Shown here one piece after another: positions 50,488-59,657 of a stretch of 64,000 bases of DNA. Below the pieces are notes generated by a model. That model did no database searches and was not told the DNA's origin. It was given only the letters and a program-made list of their open reading frames with translations. The number at the start of each line of letters is the position of its first letter. The first letter of the stretch is position 1. Both the position numbers and the translations under genes were made by a program. This DNA is from Thermogladius calderae 1633 (GTDB lineage Archaea > Thermoproteota > Thermoprotei_A > Sulfolobales > Desulfurococcaceae), in NCBI RefSeq assembly GCF_000264495.1, contig NC_017954.1, positions 806,001-870,000 on the forward strand, given 5' to 3'.

Positions 50488-51021
50488 TCAGGCGTACATC
50501 TGCGTGTGCTTCTGCTCTCTCTGCTGTGGTAGTATCGGGTATGCCTCGTTGAAGAGCGAGACTATTATGGAGTACGCGTTGAGAACCCTCATTACCGTCT
50601 TCAGAAAAACCTGTTTACCCTGAGCTCTTACCTCGTCGTCAAACAAGACTAGCGCCACTGTCAGGGTCTGCGGGTCTAGTATACTGGGCTGGATCGTGAG
50701 CTGGCAGTCCACACAGGCGGTCAGCAAGATCCTGGTCAACCTGCTCATGAACCTCAGGACCTCCTCTTGCCTCATCGACGTCAAGTACTTCCTGTGCTCC
50801 GGTGAGACTACCACGCCTATCAGGACAACGAGCCTGTCCGGCTTGTCCAGCGTCTTGAAGACCTTGAAGTTCACCTGGAACGGTGGTGGCGTGTTGACGT
50901 CGAGCCCCCACGTGATCCTAGCCTCAGGCGGCGCCTCCAGCTTCCTAACAATAAAGCCCTCCTGTATAAGCCACTCGTTAACTCTCTCCTCTACGCTGTC
51001 CTTGCTCAAAAACCCATACAC
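50488..51021 (-). CDS. DUF2299-like archaeal protein
   Basis: 177 residues, no signal peptide or membrane helix. An N-terminal part (VEERVNEWLIQEGFIV, then an alpha/beta region with FQVNFKVFKTLDKPDRLVV) resembles the archaeal DUF2299 group, whose function is unknown and whose fold recalls type III chaperone-like domains; this call is by general likeness. A C-terminal helical half includes TVALVLFDDEVRAQGKQVF. GTG 51021 is near the start expected from TTTTTTACTT (about 51048-51057, minus strand); TTG 51009 is the alternative. Confidence 0.6.
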   Translation of the reverse strand: MYGFLSKDSVEERVNEWLIQEGFIVRKLEAPPEARITWGLDVNTPPPFQVNFKVFKTLDKPDRLVVLIGVVVSPEHRKYLTSMRQEEVLRFMSRLTRILLTACVDCQLTIQPSILDPQTLTVALVLFDDEVRAQGKQVFLKTVMRVLNAYSIIVSLFNEAYPILPQQREQKHTQMYA

Positions 51022-51079: not shown

Positions 51080-52294
51080 TCACTCGTACCTAAGGGCCTC
51101 GGCTGGCGGGATCTTGGCGGCCCTGTAAGCCGGGAGTATTGACCCGAGGACGCCCACGAGGATTGTCAGGCCGATCACCCCTCCGATCAAACCGGGAGTG
51201 AACTTGGGGGCCGTCCTGATCGTCACCTTGAAGAACTCGCCGCTGGATATCGTTAGACCTCTAGACGCTAGCTGGAACGCGCCAACAACTCCGCCCGCGA
51301 TCCCGATGGCTCCTCCAATAAGGCTCATCAGTACACCCTCGAACAACGTCAACACGACCACCTGGGTGTCCGTGAAGCCGATGGCCTTCATGACGCCTAT
51401 CTCCCGCGTCCTCTCCATGACGCTCGTGATCATCGTGGACGCTATCCCAGCCACTGCGACGGCGAATGCCGAGAGGCTGGCCGCGAAAGTCATGAAGTTG
51501 ACAGCGCTGGTGATAGACGACGCGATCCTGGCGATGCCGACAAACGAGATAACGTTGGCGTTGTTCCCGAGTAAGTCGCTGATCTTCCTCGCCACCCCGT
51601 CAACGTTGGTCGGCGAGTCGACTAACACGAGTATCCCGCTCCAGTCGCTGGCACCCATGAGTAGCCTAGCCGAGTTGAACGGGACGAAAATCGACTTGTC
51701 GGGGTTTAGGAATAACGCTCCACCGTACTTCGCGAGGACGGCGGAGACCATGATGTTCAACCTCCTGGCGGAGACGCCGTTTGAGTTGGACACGTAGACA
51801 GTTACGGACACGACGTCTCCAGGCGAGTAGACCCGGTGACCATTGTCGTCGTAGGCGATGTCGTACCCTATCATGCCCTTCCCGACGTCCGCCTGTGTCG
51901 GGGGCGTGCCCTCCAAGACCTCGAGCGACGTGATCGCCTTCAGTAGGAAGTCGGGGTCTACGGCGTAGACGAATACCGTGTCGGTCGGCCTGCCGCCCAA
52001 GTACCCCTGTGTAGTGTAGAAGGGGGCTGCGGTGACGACGTGGTCGAGGCCCTTGATCCTGTCGAGGTCTCTCTCGCTCAGCTTGTACCCCTGACTCGGC
52101 GTGACGATCACGAGGTTCTGGCCGAGGCCCTGGATCTGGTTTACGATGTAGTCGCTGTAGGACGAGGTGACCCCGTATATCATGGTGATAGCGAGCGGGC
52201 CTATTGCCACCCCGATGATCGTGAGGAGAGCCCTAGCCCTCTTCTCGGTGAGCCCCTTGTAGCTCAGCATGATTATGTCGGAGAGCCTGATCAT
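51080..52294 (-). CDS. MacB/FtsX-type ABC permease
   Basis: Permease of 404 residues with the MacB topology: one N-terminal helix (RALLTIIGVAIGPLAITMI), an external domain of about 220 residues, and three C-terminal helices (about 270-400) with the family segment TREIGVMKAIGFTDTQVV. The end PAYRAAKIPPAEALRYE is typical of MacB/LolC proteins. The start ATG directly abuts the stop of the giant secreted-protein gene, so the three genes ATPase, secreted protein and permease form one translation-coupled unit. Members act by mechanotransmission rather than classic transport. Confidence 0.9.
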   Translation of the reverse strand: MIRLSDIIMLSYKGLTEKRARALLTIIGVAIGPLAITMIYGVTSSYSDYIVNQIQGLGQNLVIVTPSQGYKLSERDLDRIKGLDHVVTAAPFYTTQGYLGGRPTDTVFVYAVDPDFLLKAITSLEVLEGTPPTQADVGKGMIGYDIAYDDNGHRVYSPGDVVSVTVYVSNSNGVSARRLNIMVSAVLAKYGGALFLNPDKSIFVPFNSARLLMGASDWSGILVLVDSPTNVDGVARKISDLLGNNANVISFVGIARIASSITSAVNFMTFAASLSAFAVAVAGIASTMITSVMERTREIGVMKAIGFTDTQVVVLTLFEGVLMSLIGGAIGIAGGVVGAFQLASRGLTISSGEFFKVTIRTAPKFTPGLIGGVIGLTILVGVLGSILPAYRAAKIPPAEALRYE

Positions 52295-55200
52295 CTACTG
52301 CGCGCTCCTCCTCGCGAAGAACTTGCGGTGGAACAGGTAAAAGAAGCCTGCGAGGAACAAGGCCACCGCGCCCACCGTCAACGCGTAGTACAGCTGGACG
52401 CCCTGCTCCGATGCGGGGGCGGGCGTGGTGAGGGTGGCGTTAGTCACTGTGAGCGGGACAGTGAAGTCCTTCTCGTAGACGTTGTTGTACTCGTCTTTAA
52501 ACGTGACCCTCAACGTGATCTTGTCCAAGGTTATCTGCCCCACGCTCATTTCGACTCTGAACCCCGTTTGAGACGCCGCGTCTAGATCGCCCAGGAACTC
52601 GTAAGAGGAGGTGTTGCCGTATACGCAGTACACCGTCACACTCCTCGCTCTAGAAACGCCGGTGTTGATGATCATCCCGTTGACCACTAGAGTCCCTCCC
52701 ACGACCTTCGCGTTCGTGTCCGGGGTCAATACCAAGTCCACGAACGGTTTAACCGTGAAAGCCACGGTCTCGTTGAGGGTCTCCACGAAGCCGCTCGCGT
52801 CCTTGTAGATGACCGTCACAAGGAAGACGGCGGTAGGCGACGAGGCCGTCACCCCGGGTGCCACGGACACGCTCACAGGGTTGTACACCAACCTGAAGGC
52901 CAGGGTCGCGTTGCTCTTTGGTGGCAGTACCTCGATATACCTCACGTTGTCGAGGGGTACCGCCGTCATGCTCTGCGGTATTAGCAACACGTAAACGTCG
53001 TAGACCGGGTAGTCGTACGCGTTGGACAGGTATAATCTCGCCAACCCCGTGCTGTTGGCGAACTCCACGGCTACCCTGTCTGTGTACACGCCGAGCAGAG
53101 GTGGCCTAGGAGAGACCACGAGGGGGAGGGCGATATTCAACTCGTACCTCTCACCCCAGTGGTCGGTGAAGCTGGCCCGTGCGACTAATGTGGCGTTCTC
53201 TAGGGGCTCGCTCGCTATGTCTAGGACGAACAAGACGTCTACGAAAGCACCTTTCGCCACGCCCCCTGTCTGCGCGCTCGTTAACCGACTTATCAGTTCG
53301 GCCAGGCTAATCCCTCTCTGGGCTATCTGAGCGTATTGGGCGATCAGTTGGGGAAGACTGCCTGTAAACCCTGTGGCCTTCTGGGTGAGCGTAAAGGCGT
53401 CGACCAGTCCCGAGGGGAGGTCTGCCTCAACTAAGACGCCGTTCATTGCGGGGAACTCCGCGTTCAGGATCCTAGCGTAGTAGACGGCGCCCCTCTCCCC
53501 AGGGTACGGCTGGCCAGTCAGCCAGCCGTAGGACACGACGCTTATCGCCTTCGACGGGTCGCTTATGGTGAGGGGTACTTTGAAGAACTGTCTGCTCACC
53601 TGTGCTAAACCTCCAGCTGTAGTAGCATAAGACACTTCGAGGGTACCGCTGTAGACACCCGGGGTAACGTCCCCGATGTCGAGGGTGAACGACGCGGTGA
53701 AGACCTGGAAGGGCGGTACCGGCCCCTGGACGTAGTAAGTGAGGCTGTAGTTGTCGTGGCTCCTGAGCCCCTCGGGGACGACGAGCTTCAGCCACACCCC
53801 GCTGACCTGGTAAGGCAGGCTGTTGGCGAGGGTCACGGTGTAAACAGCGCCAGTGGAGTTCGGGTAGGCCGGGTAGCCGTTGAGCCAGTTTGCGGAGACC
53901 AGTGAAACACCGGCACCAGGCTCCCAACCTGGTAGCAGGACCTCCAACTCTCTACTGGTCGTGAACAACTCGTATGTGCCTACTCCGGCAGCCGCGTACA
54001 TGAGCGTCAGGTTGAACCTCTTTAGTCCAGGCGAAGCCTTTGAGAGGTCCAGGTAGAAGACCAGGCTCGCGGTGGTGCCGGGCTGGACTGGCACCTGGTT
54101 GGTGACGTTGTTGTTGAGCACTCTGAGGTCTGACACGAGAGGTGTGAGAGAAGCTATGAGTGTACCTAGCGGCACTGGACCTGGATTGTACACGATAATG
54201 GTCAGTGGGGCCATAGCGTTGCCAGGGTAGACGTACTGCGGGGTGTTGTAACCCCAGAAGTAGCTCGAGACCACGGGCTCGCCTACACTAGACGCGAGTC
54301 GGTCTGGGGGGCTCACTACTACGCCGGTGCTCAAGGCGATCTCGACTAGCTTAGTCGAGCCGTCGTTGTTTGTCAGGAAGCCCCTCACGTAAAGCTTGAG
54401 CGGGTAGTAGCCGGGTCTGGCGCCGGGCTTCACCAGTATGTCTGCGAACTCGACTCTCGTAGTCGCCAGCGGCTGGATGTTTATTCCGTGGACTACTAGT
54501 GTCGCTGGGTAAAAGGCCTCTGGCAGGTGTAGTTCGATGGTCGAGTCCCTAATGTAGGCGCTCATTGAGTTGTACAACTCGAAGACGAGGGTGTTCCCGG
54601 CACTATTCGGGTACGCCGCGCCTCTAGCCCAGTGGACCCCCTCCACGTAGAGACCGATCGGTGGGCTGACGACAGGTAGTAGTAGGTTGATCGTAGCTGT
54701 GGCGGGGAAGCTCGAGCCGCTGTAGACCACCACCGCATCGAGTACAAGGGTCAAGCGGACGAAGGTCACGTTCTCGAACAGGTTAACCCCTCTCAGTACC
54801 AACGTGAAGACGTCGCCGTAGTTGACCGGCCCGTCTACCACCACTACCTCGACGCTCGAGAGGTTGCTGAAGTACCCGTTCTCAACCATGGCGTAGACTA
54901 CGATGTTCTTGATCGTGTAAGTCGTGAAGCTGCGGATCGTCACCGAGACCCCCGTGTTGTTCATCCCCGGTAACACGACGTCCCCTGTGAAGCGGTAGTC
55001 CACGACCTGTAGTGTTAGATTAGGCGCCCTATCAACATCGAACTCGAAGGACAGCTGGGCGGAGGCATTGTACTCCACGCCGTCGCTAGTCATCAGGGTG
55101 GCGTTTAGCAGGAGTAGCCCCTTGTACACGCCGGGGGCTGCGTAGGGGCTTATCGCCAGCCCGTTGTAGACCAGTGTTCCGACCCCGTTAGGTGGTAGCG

Positions 55201-55831
55201 TAGATATGCTCGTCCTATTGCTCTCTGCCTTAATGAAGTCCGGGAGGCCCACCTCCGCGTCAAGCCTCGTTATCGTAGTGTTACCGTTGTTTTCGACCTC
55301 TATGACCAGGCTCGTGGGGTAGGCTCCGGGATAGCCCGCGGGCGTCCAGTACACGTCTCGCACCCTCACGTCGAGTGGGGGTAGAGGGCTTACAGTGAGG
55401 TTACCGTAGAGGACTTGGTAGGTTAAGACGCCCTCCTTGAAGTACGAGACATTGAGCTGGAACACGTAGACACCTGGGCTGACATACTTGCTCACGTCTA
55501 CTACGTAGCGGTAGTCCAGCAGATACCCAGACGAAACGGCGTACCCCAGCGTGTAGTTGGAGGGCGCCACGCAACCCGGCGACCTAAGAGTGAAGCCAGG
55601 AGGGAGGTTGATACACGCGACCGGGTTGTACGCCGACTGGTTAGAGCTGTACAGGATGCTCACGGTAAGCAACGCACCGGCGCTCCCGGGGTAGACGTCC
55701 CCGCCGGTCCTAGAGACGAACGTCACGCTCTGGAGCGTCCAGTCACCCGCCGGCGAGGACGCGTTGGGTAGGGGCGCGAGCAGAGCCAGGACCAGCCCTA
55801 GTATCGCTATGGCTGCGCGCACGGGCCTCAC
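52295..55831 (-). CDS. Giant secreted protein with tandem ~120-residue Ig-like repeats (COG1361-like), in an ABC operon
   Basis: 1178 residues from GTG 55831, whose GTGA overlaps the ATPase stop; an in-frame GTG at 55855 is less likely because it lies deeper in the upstream gene. N-terminal signal peptide (about 1-27), a long all-beta ectodomain, C-terminal helix (about 1145-1165) and basic tail. A YPG/YPN/LPG motif recurs at residues about 47, 171, 288, 407, 535, 656 and 776 (spacing 117-128), each unit ending with a PGVYxxxL-type strand, so at least seven Ig-like repeats are present. The architecture suggests an extended surface stalk or adaptor serving the MacB-type permease, where bacteria would have MacA. 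Confidence 0.82.
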   Translation of the reverse strand: MRPVRAAIAILGLVLALLAPLPNASSPAGDWTLQSVTFVSRTGGDVYPGSAGALLTVSILYSSNQSAYNPVACINLPPGFTLRSPGCVAPSNYTLGYAVSSGYLLDYRYVVDVSKYVSPGVYVFQLNVSYFKEGVLTYQVLYGNLTVSPLPPLDVRVRDVYWTPAGYPGAYPTSLVIEVENNGNTTITRLDAEVGLPDFIKAESNRTSISTLPPNGVGTLVYNGLAISPYAAPGVYKGLLLLNATLMTSDGVEYNASAQLSFEFDVDRAPNLTLQVVDYRFTGDVVLPGMNNTGVSVTIRSFTTYTIKNIVVYAMVENGYFSNLSSVEVVVVDGPVNYGDVFTLVLRGVNLFENVTFVRLTLVLDAVVVYSGSSFPATATINLLLPVVSPPIGLYVEGVHWARGAAYPNSAGNTLVFELYNSMSAYIRDSTIELHLPEAFYPATLVVHGINIQPLATTRVEFADILVKPGARPGYYPLKLYVRGFLTNNDGSTKLVEIALSTGVVVSPPDRLASSVGEPVVSSYFWGYNTPQYVYPGNAMAPLTIIVYNPGPVPLGTLIASLTPLVSDLRVLNNNVTNQVPVQPGTTASLVFYLDLSKASPGLKRFNLTLMYAAAGVGTYELFTTSRELEVLLPGWEPGAGVSLVSANWLNGYPAYPNSTGAVYTVTLANSLPYQVSGVWLKLVVPEGLRSHDNYSLTYYVQGPVPPFQVFTASFTLDIGDVTPGVYSGTLEVSYATTAGGLAQVSRQFFKVPLTISDPSKAISVVSYGWLTGQPYPGERGAVYYARILNAEFPAMNGVLVEADLPSGLVDAFTLTQKATGFTGSLPQLIAQYAQIAQRGISLAELISRLTSAQTGGVAKGAFVDVLFVLDIASEPLENATLVARASFTDHWGERYELNIALPLVVSPRPPLLGVYTDRVAVEFANSTGLARLYLSNAYDYPVYDVYVLLIPQSMTAVPLDNVRYIEVLPPKSNATLAFRLVYNPVSVSVAPGVTASSPTAVFLVTVIYKDASGFVETLNETVAFTVKPFVDLVLTPDTNAKVVGGTLVVNGMIINTGVSRARSVTVYCVYGNTSSYEFLGDLDAASQTGFRVEMSVGQITLDKITLRVTFKDEYNNVYEKDFTVPLTVTNATLTTPAPASEQGVQLYYALTVGAVALFLAGFFYLFHRKFFARRSAQ

Positions 55832-56550
55832 CCTGTCCCAGTGTTCGCTATACACTTCTCCTTCACGGGGGGCTTCACGTCTACTATCCTGCCGTCCCTG
55901 ATCACGTATATCACGTGGCTACAGTTGGCTACCTCGGGGTCGTGAGTGACCGTTATAACCGTCAGGCCCTTCTCGTTCAATGTCTTGAACGTCTCCATGA
56001 CCACTCTTGCGGAGGCCCTGTCGAGGTTACCTGTCGGCTCGTCGGCTAGGAGTATGGCGGGCTTGCCGACTATCGCCCTAGCGATCGCGACCCTCTGTTG
56101 CTGCCCCCCGCTCAGTTGCGTCGGCTTCTTCCTCAGCCACTCCTCCTCCCCACCAACCATTTTGAGAGCCTCCACGACCATTCTCTCCCTCTCGCCTCTC
56201 GGTACGCCCCTCGCCACTAGGGGTAGCTCTACATTCTCCATTACGCTGAGCCTCCCTATCAGGTTAAACCTCTGGAAGACGAACCCTATCAGGTAGTTCC
56301 TGTAGAAGGCCATCTCCCTACTAGACAGCCTCGAGACGTCCTTCCCTGCGAGTACGACGTCTCCTCTAGTGGGCTTGTCTAGTAGGCCGATCATGTTCAA
56401 GAGCGTGGACTTACCCGAGCCGCTGGGCCCCATTATGGCAACGAACTCCCCTCTCGCGACTCTTAGATCCACACCTCTAAGAGCCGGGGTCTCGATATCA
56501 CCGGTCTTATAAATCTTCCAGACGTCCCTAAGCTCGACTATATAGCTCAA
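55828..56550 (-). CDS. LolD/MacB-type ABC ATPase
   Basis: 240 residues with Walker [10 protein letters not shown] (about 37-45), signature [15 protein letters not shown], Walker [13 protein letters not shown] and switch VTHDPEVA; the [10 protein letters not shown] form is diagnostic for the LolD/MacB/FtsE group. TTG 56550 overlaps the HD-protein stop (TTGA) and its own stop overlaps the giant secreted protein start (GTGA), so all three genes are coupled. It powers the permease at 51080-52294. Confidence 0.93.
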
Positions 56551-57260
56551 GAACCACCACCGCAGTACTGTTTGAAAGACTCGATGAGCTTCCCCCTATC
56601 CTCGAATAGGCTTTCGAATACACGGTTAGCTCCTACTCTCCTGGCCTTCTCGTCAATAACCTTAATAGGGTTACACCCCTCTTTATCCAGAGTCTTCAAG
56701 TTGTTTACGAGGACCTGCTGTAGTATGTCAACCAACCTCGCGTCTGCGGAGTCCGCGATGTGCACTATCAGGCCCTCTAGCGTAGTGAAGGGCTGGAGGC
56801 CGTGTGCTTCTACCACAGCCCTGATAAGCCTGTCGGGCGCGCCGCGCTTAGCGAGCTCGGCTACGAGAGAGTAGTCGTGGGAGACATACCAGTCGCCTCG
56901 GGGCTTGTAGCCGCCCTCGGCCTCGTCCTTCTCGTACTGGTAGTACTTGAACAGGTCGTGGAGTATAGCGGCGGCTATCACGAGGTCTCTGTCCGCCTTT
57001 AGTCCGTAAACGGTCTCGACGTAGTCCCTGATCCTGACGGCTAGCTCGACGACGCCAAGCGTGTGGAGTAGGAGGCCTCCCGTGAAGAAGTGGTGTTTGC
57101 GCGGCGCAGCTGGGGATTCGTGGAGGGTTACTTGCGGCCTCGCGTCAGTGAACGTCAGCACCGGGTCCTTGAGCATGTCCTGTACTACTTGCCTGATGCG
57201 GGGGTCACCTATACTTCCGGCGTACTCTAGTAGCCTATCGAGCAGCTGGCTCACGGCCAT
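56547..57260 (-). CDS. HD-domain phosphohydrolase, YhaM-like
   Basis: HD-superfamily metal phosphohydrolase of 237 residues; relatives cleave nucleotides or RNA 3' ends. The HD signature is spread as FTGGLLLHTLGVV, AAAILHDLFKYY and a later VEAHGLQPF. No nucleic-acid-binding OB domain is present, unlike bacterial YhaM. ATG 57260 is used; an additional GTG directly precedes it. First gene of the operon continuing into the LolD-type ATPase; the combination with an ABC exporter is unusual and may reflect only operon packing. Confidence 0.8.
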   Translation of the reverse strand: MAVSQLLDRLLEYAGSIGDPRIRQVVQDMLKDPVLTFTDARPQVTLHESPAAPRKHHFFTGGLLLHTLGVVELAVRIRDYVETVYGLKADRDLVIAAAILHDLFKYYQYEKDEAEGGYKPRGDWYVSHDYSLVAELAKRGAPDRLIRAVVEAHGLQPFTTLEGLIVHIADSADARLVDILQQVLVNNLKTLDKEGCNPIKVIDEKARRVGANRVFESLFEDRGKLIESFKQYCGGGS

Positions 57261-57269
57261 CACACCCGA

Positions 57270-57285
57270 TATATCAGCAGATATA
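57270..57285. promoter_or_regulatory. Candidate PadR operator copy 1 (TATATC-N4-GATATA)
   Basis: Perfect 6+6 inverted repeat around AGCA. It overlaps the predicted transcription start (about 57272) of the minus-strand HD/ABC operon, whose TATA-like TTATAACC lies at about 57295-57303. It shares its sequence with copy 2, 64 bp away. Confidence 0.55.
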
Positions 57286-57333
57286 CTGTTTAGGTTATAA
57301 ATATATTCGATCAGAAACGCTTATAAAGACGCA

Positions 57334-57349
57334 TGTATCTGGTGATATA
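57334..57349. promoter_or_regulatory. Candidate PadR operator copy 2 (TGTATC-N4-GATATA)
   Basis: Same 16-bp pattern as copy 1 with one mismatch in the left arm, around TGGT. It overlaps the predicted start (about 57347-57349) of the padR-type operon, whose box CTTATAAAG is at 57320-57328. Bound protein would block both divergent promoters. Confidence 0.55.
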
Positions 57350-57364
57350 CTTAGCGGTGGCAGG

Positions 57365-57832
57365 GTGGTGGATAGACTCATATACAGAGGGATGCTAAGG
57401 GTGATCGTACTGAAAAGCCTCTCAGAGCAGCCCTTGCACGGCTACGCGTTGATGAACAGGATCGAGGAGTCCTACGGTTTTAAGCCGAGCCCAGGCGCCA
57501 TATACCCGCTCTTGCGGAGGATGATCTTGGAGGGCCTCGTCACAGTCGAGGAGAGGCGTGTAGGCGATAAGGTCGTGAAAGTATACAGTGTCACGGATAT
57601 GGGGGTCTCGTACTTGAGAGAGCACGCAAGCCTCGTGACGTTACTAGACCAGTTGTCGGCGAAGCTGAAGATCGCCAGCGATATAGGGCTGTTGGCGCTC
57701 GCCAAGAACCTTTTCTGGCTGTTCAGGCACATCAACGAGATACCGAGCGACAAGCTCAACGAGTTCAAGCCGAAGTTCTCCGAGTTGAACGAGATGATAT
57801 CGAGGCTCAAGAGGGTGGAAACGTGGAGGTAA
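57365..57832 (+). CDS. PadR-family transcriptional regulator
   Basis: Winged-helix repressor of 155 residues; relatives control multidrug or membrane-stress exporters. Family pattern: IVLKSLSEQPLHGYALMNRI then PGAIYPLLRRMILEGLVTVE (recognition helix) and a wing VYSVTDMGVSYL, followed by a C-terminal dimerisation helix region. GTG 57365 sits about 16 nt after the predicted start. It overlaps the next gene, an ABC-2 ATPase, by 10 bp. Two matching inverted repeats lie on the divergent promoters, so autoregulation plus control of both ABC operons is a natural model. Confidence 0.9.
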   Translation: MVDRLIYRGMLRVIVLKSLSEQPLHGYALMNRIEESYGFKPSPGAIYPLLRRMILEGLVTVEERRVGDKVVKVYSVTDMGVSYLREHASLVTLLDQLSAKLKIASDIGLLALAKNLFWLFRHINEIPSDKLNEFKPKFSELNEMISRLKRVETWR

Positions 57833-58797
57833 TCGTTGTAGAGAACCTGGTCAAGAAGTACAAGGACGTCACAGCGGTGAACGGGGTCAGCTTCACGGTT
57901 AAGAGGGGTGAGGTGTTCGCTCTGCTGGGGCCGAACGGTGCTGGCAAGACTACTACGATACACGTGATCGCCACCTTGCTCAAGCCGACATCCGGAAAAG
58001 TGCTCGTAGAAGGGTTCGACGTGTCGAGGGAGCCTGGCAAGGTGAGGAGGCTTATCGGGATTGTGTTCCAAGAGCCGAGCCTGGACAACCAGCTCACTGC
58101 TTACGACAACATGTACATCCACGGCAGGCTCTACGGGCTCAGGGGTAGGGAGCTCCACGAGAGGATAATGGAGATGCTCGACTTCGTAGAGCTTAAAGAG
58201 TTCGCGTATAAGCAGGTCAAGTACTTCAGTGGGGGTATGAAGAGGAGGCTCGAGATCGCTAGGGGTCTCCTCAGCAACCCCGACGTCCTGATCCTCGACG
58301 AGCCCACGATAGGGCTCGACCCGCAGTCGAGAGCCAGGGTATGGGAGTACATTAGGAGGCTTAGGAGCGAGCTCGGCATTACAATACTCATGACCACACA
58401 CTACCTAGACGAGGCAGACGAGCTCGCGGACAGGATCGCGATCATGGACCATGGGAAGATCGTCGCGATGGGCACGAGCCTCGAGCTGAAGAACATGCTC
58501 GGCAGCGATGTGATCTACCTCAGGTTCGCGCAGCCGGTAACGGAGAGCGTCTGCCGAGAGTTCAGCGGTGTCAAGGACTGCAGACTGCTGAAGGACAGTA
58601 TGGTCGAGTTGGTGGTGGAGAACGCAAACAAGCTACTACCAGAGGTCATGAAGGTCGTCGTGGAGAGAGGGCTCAGCCTCCAAGAGGTGAGCTACAGGAA
58701 GCCGAGCCTCAACGAGGTCTTCCTCCACCTGACGGGTAGAGAGCTGAGGGACAGTCTCGAATTCCCGCAACCAGTCGCGAGGAGGTGGCACAGGTAG
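57823..58797 (+). CDS. ABC-2 type ATPase (DrrA/CcmA-like)
   Basis: Exporter ATPase, 324 residues: Walker A GPNGAGKTT (about 37-45), signature FSGGMKRRLEIARGL, Walker B LILDEPTIGLDPQSR, switch TTHYLDEAD. The extra C-terminal domain (about 225-324, ending LRDSLEFPQPVARR) is of the DrrA type. GTG 57823 lies within the padR end; ribosome coupling is likely. It works with the ABC-2 permease downstream to export a drug-like or lipid substrate (family knowledge). Confidence 0.92.
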   Translation: MEVIVVENLVKKYKDVTAVNGVSFTVKRGEVFALLGPNGAGKTTTIHVIATLLKPTSGKVLVEGFDVSREPGKVRRLIGIVFQEPSLDNQLTAYDNMYIHGRLYGLRGRELHERIMEMLDFVELKEFAYKQVKYFSGGMKRRLEIARGLLSNPDVLILDEPTIGLDPQSRARVWEYIRRLRSELGITILMTTHYLDEADELADRIAIMDHGKIVAMGTSLELKNMLGSDVIYLRFAQPVTESVCREFSGVKDCRLLKDSMVELVVENANKLLPEVMKVVVERGLSLQEVSYRKPSLNEVFLHLTGRELRDSLEFPQPVARRWHR

Positions 58798-59657
58798 TGT
58801 ACAGGGACCTCTCCCCTCTAGTAGCAATGGTGTACAGGCAGGTCAAGAGGTGGATGGGGGCCAGGTCGAGGCTCGTCTCCACTGTGCTGAACCCGCTGGT
58901 GTGGATCATATTTTTGGGCCTCGGCTGGGGGTCGGTGTTCTCGGGGACGAGTTTCAGCAGGTTGCCGACCGGGATACCCGTACCACCCGGCCTCTCGATC
59001 TCCGACATGATCCAGAGGTATTTCAACACCATCTTCGGCGGCGTAGACTACCTCACATTCATGGTCAGCGGCATGGCTTCGATGACTGTGTTCATGGGCA
59101 GCTTCATCGGTGGGTTAAGCGTCATATGGGACAAGCAGTTCGGCTACTTGAAGGAGACGCTCGTAGCCCCCGCCTCTAGGAAGCTCGTGATAGCTGGTAG
59201 GATACTGGGCGACGCTATCATAACTACGCTACAGGGGCTGATCGTGGTGCTACTCGGCCTTGCGTTGGCGGGGGGCTTGAGACTAACCGGCATACCCATA
59301 GCGATAGTCTACCTGTTCATCTCGGCTCTAGCCTTCTCGTCCCTCGGGGTAATAATAGCCCTCAAGCTGACAAGTGTGGAGGGCTTCCAGATGTTGATCA
59401 ACCTACTGACGATGCCGCTGATGTTCATGAGCGGCGTGTTCTACCCGTTCACCACGATGCCCGACTGGATGAAGGTGTTTGCCCAGTTCAACCCGCTGAG
59501 CTATACTGTCCACAGCGTGAGGTACTGGCTCACCGGTGCCGACGTCGGCCTCTACCCGATGAGCCCTGTAAACGACCTCATAGTGCTCGCGTTAGTAGGG
59601 TCTGCGATGTTGTGGTTAGCGGGGGTCATGTTCGAAAAAACTTCTATTGAGGAGTAA
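58785..59657 (+). CDS. ABC-2 type permease (DrrB-like)
   Basis: Six-helix exporter permease of 290 residues with an N-terminal cytoplasmic segment (VYRQVKRWMGARSRLV), LNPLVWIIFLGLGWG as helix 1 and MLINLLTMPLMFMSGVFYPF, the typical ABC-2 LxxPxxFxSGxxxP-type motif. The GTG at 58785 overlaps the ATPase gene by 13 bp; GTG 58797 with GGAGG at 58781-58785 is a credible alternative. The 3' end overlaps convergent speE by 14 bp. Confidence 0.9.
   Translation: MAQVVYRDLSPLVAMVYRQVKRWMGARSRLVSTVLNPLVWIIFLGLGWGSVFSGTSFSRLPTGIPVPPGLSISDMIQRYFNTIFGGVDYLTFMVSGMASMTVFMGSFIGGLSVIWDKQFGYLKETLVAPASRKLVIAGRILGDAIITTLQGLIVVLLGLALAGGLRLTGIPIAIVYLFISALAFSSLGVIIALKLTSVEGFQMLINLLTMPLMFMSGVFYPFTTMPDWMKVFAQFNPLSYTVHSVRYWLTGADVGLYPMSPVNDLIVLALVGSAMLWLAGVMFEKTSIEE

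Follow-up and report, generated by a model that had tools for sequence, protein, structure and literature searches.

Comparison of sequences among related archaea makes it very probable that a dimer of the locally encoded PadR-family protein of Thermogladius calderae represses its own operon, padR-drrA-drrB, and co-represses the divergent operon HD-macA-COG1361-macB, acting at twin palindromes that would allow it to occlude both transcription start sites. The window, by which we mean the whole stretch of 64,000 nucleotides that was analysed, carries the following features, with both palindromes located in the 101-bp gap between the HD gene and padR:

50488-51021, minus strand: 177-residue protein (g177), which adjoins macB in genus g6 and part of genus g7 too
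51080-52294, minus strand: macB, MacB/FtsX-type permease (PF12704, PF02687)
52295-55855, minus strand: 'COG1361', a 1186-residue protein encoded between macA and macB
55828-56550, minus strand: macA-type ABC ATPase of the MacB/LolD class (PF00005)
56547-57263, minus strand: HD-domain (HDIG) protein at the head of the divergent operon (PF01966)
57270-57285, no strand: O-mac, TATATC-AGCA-GATATA (TATATCAGCAGATATA), putative operator of the HD-macA-COG1361-macB promoter
57294-57301, minus strand: TTTATAAC, TATA box of the HD/mac promoter, with O-mac 16 bp downstream
57320-57327, plus strand: CTTATAAA, TATA box of the padR promoter, with O-padR 14 bp downstream
57334-57349, no strand: O-padR, TGTATC-TGGT-GATATA (TGTATCTGGTGATATA), putative operator of the padR-drrAB promoter
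57365-57832, plus strand: padR, PadR-family protein of 155 residues, a predicted repressor (PF03551, 61.4 bits against a cut-off of 27)
57823-58797, plus strand: drrA, ABC exporter ATPase (TIGR01188, 364.6 bits, above the cut-off)
58785-59657, plus strand: drrB, ABC-2 permease (TIGR01247, 234.9 bits, above the cut-off; PF01061)

The rightward genes padR, drrA and drrB overlap one another, the repressor gene adjoining the exporter as in LmrR-LmrCD-like systems; padR itself may start at its second GTG, at 57368. An earlier note on this DNA had placed the palindromes on two divergent start sites, those of a MacB-type operon and a drug-type exporter. The two operons are indeed opposed, but the first gene leftward is the HD gene, so that macA does not come directly first. 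This HD gene lies between padR and macA in all four genomes of the Thermogladius group, and in no other padR/mac locus examined. The 1186-residue protein gave no match in a search of Pfam and NCBIfam, and COG1361 is a label that we presume to apply to it; it is possibly an extracellular partner of the MacB-type pump. The COG1361 homologues of relatives are likewise encoded between macA and macB, and range from about 1080 to 1680 residues across genera.

The AlphaFold model of PadR (pLDDT 92.6), a model of the monomer, shows a winged helix with the element order H-H-H-E-E followed by C-terminal helices, and fits the family plan of an N-terminal winged helix and a C-terminal dimerisation helix. 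The closest solved folds are PadR proteins, including Rv3488, LmrR and, nearest of all, TA0346 from Thermoplasma acidophilum (PDB 3elk). TA0346, an archaeal PadR-family winged-helix protein, is the best match in both sequence and fold, although its C-terminus is shorter (a 117-residue chain); we know of no operator for it. Two metagenome-assembled genomes named 'Thermogladius sp.' encode PadR proteins with 95% and 59% identity to that of T. calderae. The canonical site of bacterial PadR proteins, ATGT-N8-ACAT in the accounts available to us (PMC4517056, PMC5428041, PMC5050560), is absent from both palindromes, and the putative T. calderae site differs from it in letters and in register. The bacterial site is usual among the PadR proteins that have been studied but does not define the family.

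The coordinates and sequences given for both inverted repeats in the earlier note are exact, as is the distance of 64 bp between them, measured start to start. O-mac has perfect 6-bp arms, whereas the arms of O-padR differ at one position. Dinucleotide shuffling of the 101-bp gap, repeated 20,000 times, produced a perfect 6-4-6 inverted repeat in 904 cases, so that a single one is unremarkable there. Two repeats with the same arms and gap arose in none of the shuffles, and a pair with any gap of 0-10 allowed arose in 12; a chance origin of the twin palindromes is rejected on these counts.

The genome, a single contig of 1,356,318 bases, contains only two exact matches to TRTATC-N4-GATATA, and these are O-mac and O-padR. 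All five sites with one mismatch lie within open reading frames, leaving the twins as the only intergenic sites with at most one mismatch in 1.36 Mb; this is the outcome of the genome search that had been named beforehand as a check on the proposal. At two mismatches there is no excess across the genome (41/39 matches, compared with 70/69 for the reversed control). A genome-wide regulon is thus not seen in T. calderae, and the motif looks like a dedicated, local pair of operators. The PF03551 scan of the genome gave 62.6 bits for padR; a second, weak PadR-family gene (position 610391, 27.8 bits) has no site with two or fewer mismatches near it in the genome-wide motif search.

Archaeal transcription starts about 30 bp past the beginning of the TATA box, and the two TATA boxes therefore suggest starts near 57350 for padR and near 57271 for the HD/mac operon; matches to sigma-70-type promoters were set aside because the genome is archaeal. 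Each putative operator would then span roughly -16 to +1 relative to its predicted start. The overlap of repeats and start sites that had been proposed for this gap thus holds if the starts are predicted from CTTATAAA and TTTATAAC. The divergent TATA boxes (57294-57327) are only about 25 bp apart, and two initiation complexes may for this reason compete for that segment.

These positions suggest how repression could work. A PadR dimer would bind each palindrome, and each operator would cover the region where RNA polymerase opens the DNA and starts. The bound dimer would leave the TBP and TFB sites free but would block polymerase entry or DNA opening, and initiation of both transcripts, padR-drrA-drrB (autorepression) and HD-macA-COG1361-macB, would be prevented. 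Both transcripts would be repressed rather than activated. Both exporters would open together once PadR was released by an inducer, which is probably a drug-like or membrane-active compound that one of the pumps exports.

Conservation of the site in relatives was assessed with the consensus ATATATC-N4-GATATAT, the regions upstream of padR homologues being compared with those of other genes of the same loci. A site with at most one mismatch lies upstream of 16 of 32 padR homologues (10 exact) and of none of 478 other genes (Fisher p 7.6e-22), a control set that is without genes less than 300 bp from padR and without genes inside six mac operons, these exclusions having been made after four 'control' matches proved to be COG1361 promoters of mac operons. 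With two mismatches allowed the counts are 19/32 and 4/478, and two of these four control matches are again COG1361 promoters, from mac operons of g7, with the sequence TATGTC-N4-GACATA. The 32 loci comprise most of the 30 whose upstream sequences were viewed in a first survey (some 140 matches, spread over 58 of 61 genomes), together with mac-linked padR genes; among those left out are L053 (G046) and L034 (G057).

A further 80 homologues from the class, which had played no part in defining the motif and were chosen among the matches listed (padR matches occur in 176 of 229 genomes), gave 12 exact sites, 21 with at most one mismatch and 28 with at most two, although they include close relatives and are not 80 independent events. 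Two of them that have no site, in G046 and G206, had been viewed before. A match in G316 was left out because only 55 bases separate its start from the end of a contig, and a few matches of lower rank were not included. Sites with no more than two mismatches are found in families f2 (13/19), f3 (8/17), f5 (3/4), f6 (2/9) and f9 (1/4), and in one of two homologues from f49, which belongs to another order of the class. They are absent from f7 (0/1), f8 (0/6), f10 (0/3), f11 (0/13), f48 (0/1) and f50 (0/1). Half of the first set (16/32) and 59/80 of the second have no site within one mismatch. This distribution implies that the operator is typical of one part of the PadR family and not of all of it.

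The signal lies in the location of the motif and not in its number. Exact TATATC-N4-GATATA sites number 33 in 40 family genomes, fewer than the 57 sites of the reversed control pattern in the same genomes. Fifteen of the 33 are just upstream of padR, four are just upstream of drrA genes that have no padR neighbour, and 14 are elsewhere. As a negative control, macA promoters that have no divergent padR next to them were examined; all 13 have at least four mismatches, and the drrA promoter of G033, also without an adjacent padR, has six. The twin arrangement is present in all four genomes of the Thermogladius group (T. calderae, G001, G002 and G003), even at 57-59% PadR identity, with O-mac and O-padR both conserved. 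Sites of the O-padR type recur in the padR promoters of other genera, and it is this conservation that supports an operator in padR's own promoter, a trait of LmrR-LmrCD-like systems. Outside the Thermogladius group, homologues have one site or one cluster; in relatives a single site fronts padR-drrAB or sits between padR and the mac operon.

Gene order varies around padR, which is linked to drrAB alone at 12 loci, to the mac operon alone at 12 loci, and to both in eight genomes. The order g177-macB-COG1361-macA, padR-drrA-drrB, speE-deoC is shared by T. calderae and its sister genome, which have the extra HD gene, and by three genomes of g6. Two other contigs of the Thermogladius group have the same order as far as the contigs reach, and G022 (g10) has its core. 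A padR gene facing macA with no drrAB is found in G030, G012, G049, G039, G035, G021, G062 and G009. In genus g5, padR follows macB at the 3' end of the mac operon; an operator precedes COG1361, with one mismatch in G007, G019 and G036 and two in G027, and the unlinked drrAB has an exact operator in G007, G019, G027 and G032. The g5 layout is good evidence, from comparison, that a single PadR is able to serve the two exporters at separate loci. For G032, whose assembly is 81% complete, no close PadR was found. These comparisons give good support to the proposal that twin operators place the two divergent exporter operons under one PadR: the motif tracks padR across genera, twin sites occur throughout the Thermogladius group, each operon is elsewhere found beside padR, and the unlinked drrAB of g5 carries the operator.

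Could the twin sites act through a DNA loop? The earlier note had raised this possibility. Bound PadR dimers would then bridge the two sites, enclosing both TATA boxes in a loop of about 64 bp, and repression of the two operons would be cooperative. We regard such looping as unlikely. The operators are 64 bp apart in T. calderae and G002 and 74 bp apart in G001 and G003, corresponding to 6.1 and 7.05 turns at 10.5 bp; both values are near whole turns, placing the sites on the same face of the DNA in both lineages, where they could cooperate, and both promoters would be trapped inside the loop. These are, however, only two independent spacings. The distance from each operator to its own TATA box is nearly constant, at 14 bp for padR and 16 bp for HD/mac in T. 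calderae and 14 and 17 bp in G001 and G003; in the latter two genomes it is between the TATA boxes that the additional 10 bp is found. The layout can thus be explained by the position of back-to-back promoters without a loop. In addition, an extra site is present in G001 and G003 at 86 bp, displaced 12 bp outward from O-mac and overlapping it, homologues elsewhere manage with one site or one cluster, and no tetramerisation domain is apparent in the PadR model. Looping as a requirement is therefore not supported.

It is quite improbable that the palindromes serve another regulator, for example of the Lrp or MarR type, with padR merely a neighbour. AT-rich palindromes are found in many archaeal promoters, and neighbourhood alone is no proof of binding, but the motif stays with padR in different families and when gene order changes, and it is missing from all 13 of the macA promoters that have no adjacent divergent padR. 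A role for PadR as activator of one promoter, or as a switch between two that compete back to back, has very little probability: two initiation complexes on TATA boxes about 25 bp apart might exclude each other, yet each operator is downstream of its own TATA box, a placement that as a rule leads to repression; YtrASa was footprinted at such a position in the results available to us (PMC6746942). Inverted repeats near a transcript start can also fold, and might work at the RNA level, as hairpins of the 5' leader or as attenuators. The chance of this is close to negligible. Folding is no better than for shuffled sequences (z -0.44 and +0.26), on which count an RNA hairpin was rejected; the second palindrome does not form its arms, stems of A-U pairs would be weak in a hyperthermophile, and little of either palindrome would be transcribed, since both are at or before the predicted starts.

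We return to the reading in which PadR itself occupies both operators as a repressor, and to how this circuit may have arisen. In the PadR tree, several deep branches of which are long and poorly supported, the Thermogladius proteins cluster with the drr-linked PadR of g7 (98/95) and lie apart from the clade (99/99) formed by the mac-linked PadR proteins of f4 and g7. This placement points to a PadR of the drr type as the one that would now serve both Thermogladius operons, following the gain of a second operator. Two PadR paralogues occur together in g7. The palindrome that goes with the mac-linked paralogue, between padR and macA, is altered to TATGTC-N4-GACATA, as would be expected if the two PadR circuits are kept apart. 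It is seen at L114:2822-2888, L113, L116 and L118, with the form TGTGTC-TTTA-GACATA in L118, and is repeated before COG1361 in G021 and G062 (L114, upstream of 3664, and L116). Operators co-vary within a genome: TATGTC-N4-GACATA in G021 and TATATC-N4-GATATA in G039 are each present both at the mac-linked padR and before COG1361. In g6 and g10, which have the divergent order in whole or in part, palindromes are mostly diverged or not clear, with the exception of G008 (one mismatch), implying that the operator has changed there or that the circuit differs.

A specificity code at residue P43 of PadR, with P pairing with TATC..GATA and S with TGTC..GACA, was considered and dropped after the 80 further homologues. 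Under the preset rule 0/8 S-type loci had the TGTC motif, and under a looser core pattern adopted later 1/8 had it; proteins with T or A at this position also have TATC..GATA operators.

Self-complementary units resembling GATATATC, repeated with a 12-bp period as overlapping palindromes, form runs of three upstream of padR in L072, L073, L074 and L075 and at L023:3519-3546; runs with this period are present in G009, G021, G018 and G026. A wider scheme can be put forward, tentatively and with somewhat less than even confidence. A PadR regulon that uses start-site operators built of GATATATC units set 12 bp apart may run through much of the order and reach another order of the class. In Thermogladius, a drr-type PadR may then have taken over a second, unrelated exporter operon by way of a second operator, with one sensor driving two envelope pumps from mirror-image and possibly mutually exclusive promoters, whereas the exporters of g7 would each have their own PadR paralogue, insulated by TATGTC-N4-GACATA.

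How does this predicted circuit compare with known systems? LmrR of Lactococcus lactis, a PadR-family protein encoded beside the ABC multidrug exporter LmrCD, is described as repressing its own gene and the exporter through operators in their promoters (PMC5428041, PMC4517056; accounts available to us in part). The T. calderae system resembles it in having padR beside an ABC exporter and a predicted operator in padR's own promoter. It differs in its archaeal promoter with a TATA box, in its operator (TATATC-N4-GATATA, compared with ATGT-N8/10-ACAT), in the placing of padR and drrAB in one operon, in the predicted control of a second exporter operon from the same gap, and in its 155-residue PadR, which has more C-terminal helix. 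YtrASa, a GntR-family protein of Sulfolobus acidocaldarius, represses two loci for membrane proteins, its own operon included; its footprinted, semi-palindromic site is downstream of BRE/TATA and covers the start, with extra flanking half-sites, in the portions of the report at hand (PMC6746942). As far as those portions go, the two systems share a very small regulon (predicted here) and a site past the TATA box over the start (also predicted here), but the protein families differ, and the two YtrASa targets are distinct loci in contrast to the single divergent gap of T. calderae. RosR (VNG0258H) of Halobacterium salinarum, another archaeal winged-helix regulator, weakly related to PadR, has a palindromic operator averaging within 18 bp of ORF starts; its regulon is large and concerned with oxidative stress, its motif is a GC-rich 20-bp sequence (TCGnCGACGAGnTCGnCGAC), and linkage to an exporter is not seen in the parts of these reports available to us (PMC4287449, PMC3443676).

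No archaeal PadR operator of this kind was found in the open literature, a scope outside which most subscription journals fall. Sequence comparison here yields a concrete predicted operator, its place on archaeal promoters, predicted targets that are two kinds of ABC exporter, and natural variants of regulator and operator. All of these could be tested with one purified, thermostable protein, and the loci offer a clear case of regulators spreading over, splitting between, or merging two exporter operons.

Two further palindromic arrangements were observed at PadR loci. In locus L090 of G012 (g10), the gap that separates padR (9106, minus strand) from macA holds a perfect 24-bp palindrome, TTTAAACTAATATATTAGTTTAAA, which is unlike the main motif and lies some 20-45 bp upstream of padR. 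In genus g75, outside the order, tandem palindromes resembling TGTC-N4-GAC(A/T), such as TGTCTATAGACTGTCTGCAGACA, are found just upstream of PadR homologues (L129, L130, L131 and L133), and may represent this operator plan in more distant members of the phylum.
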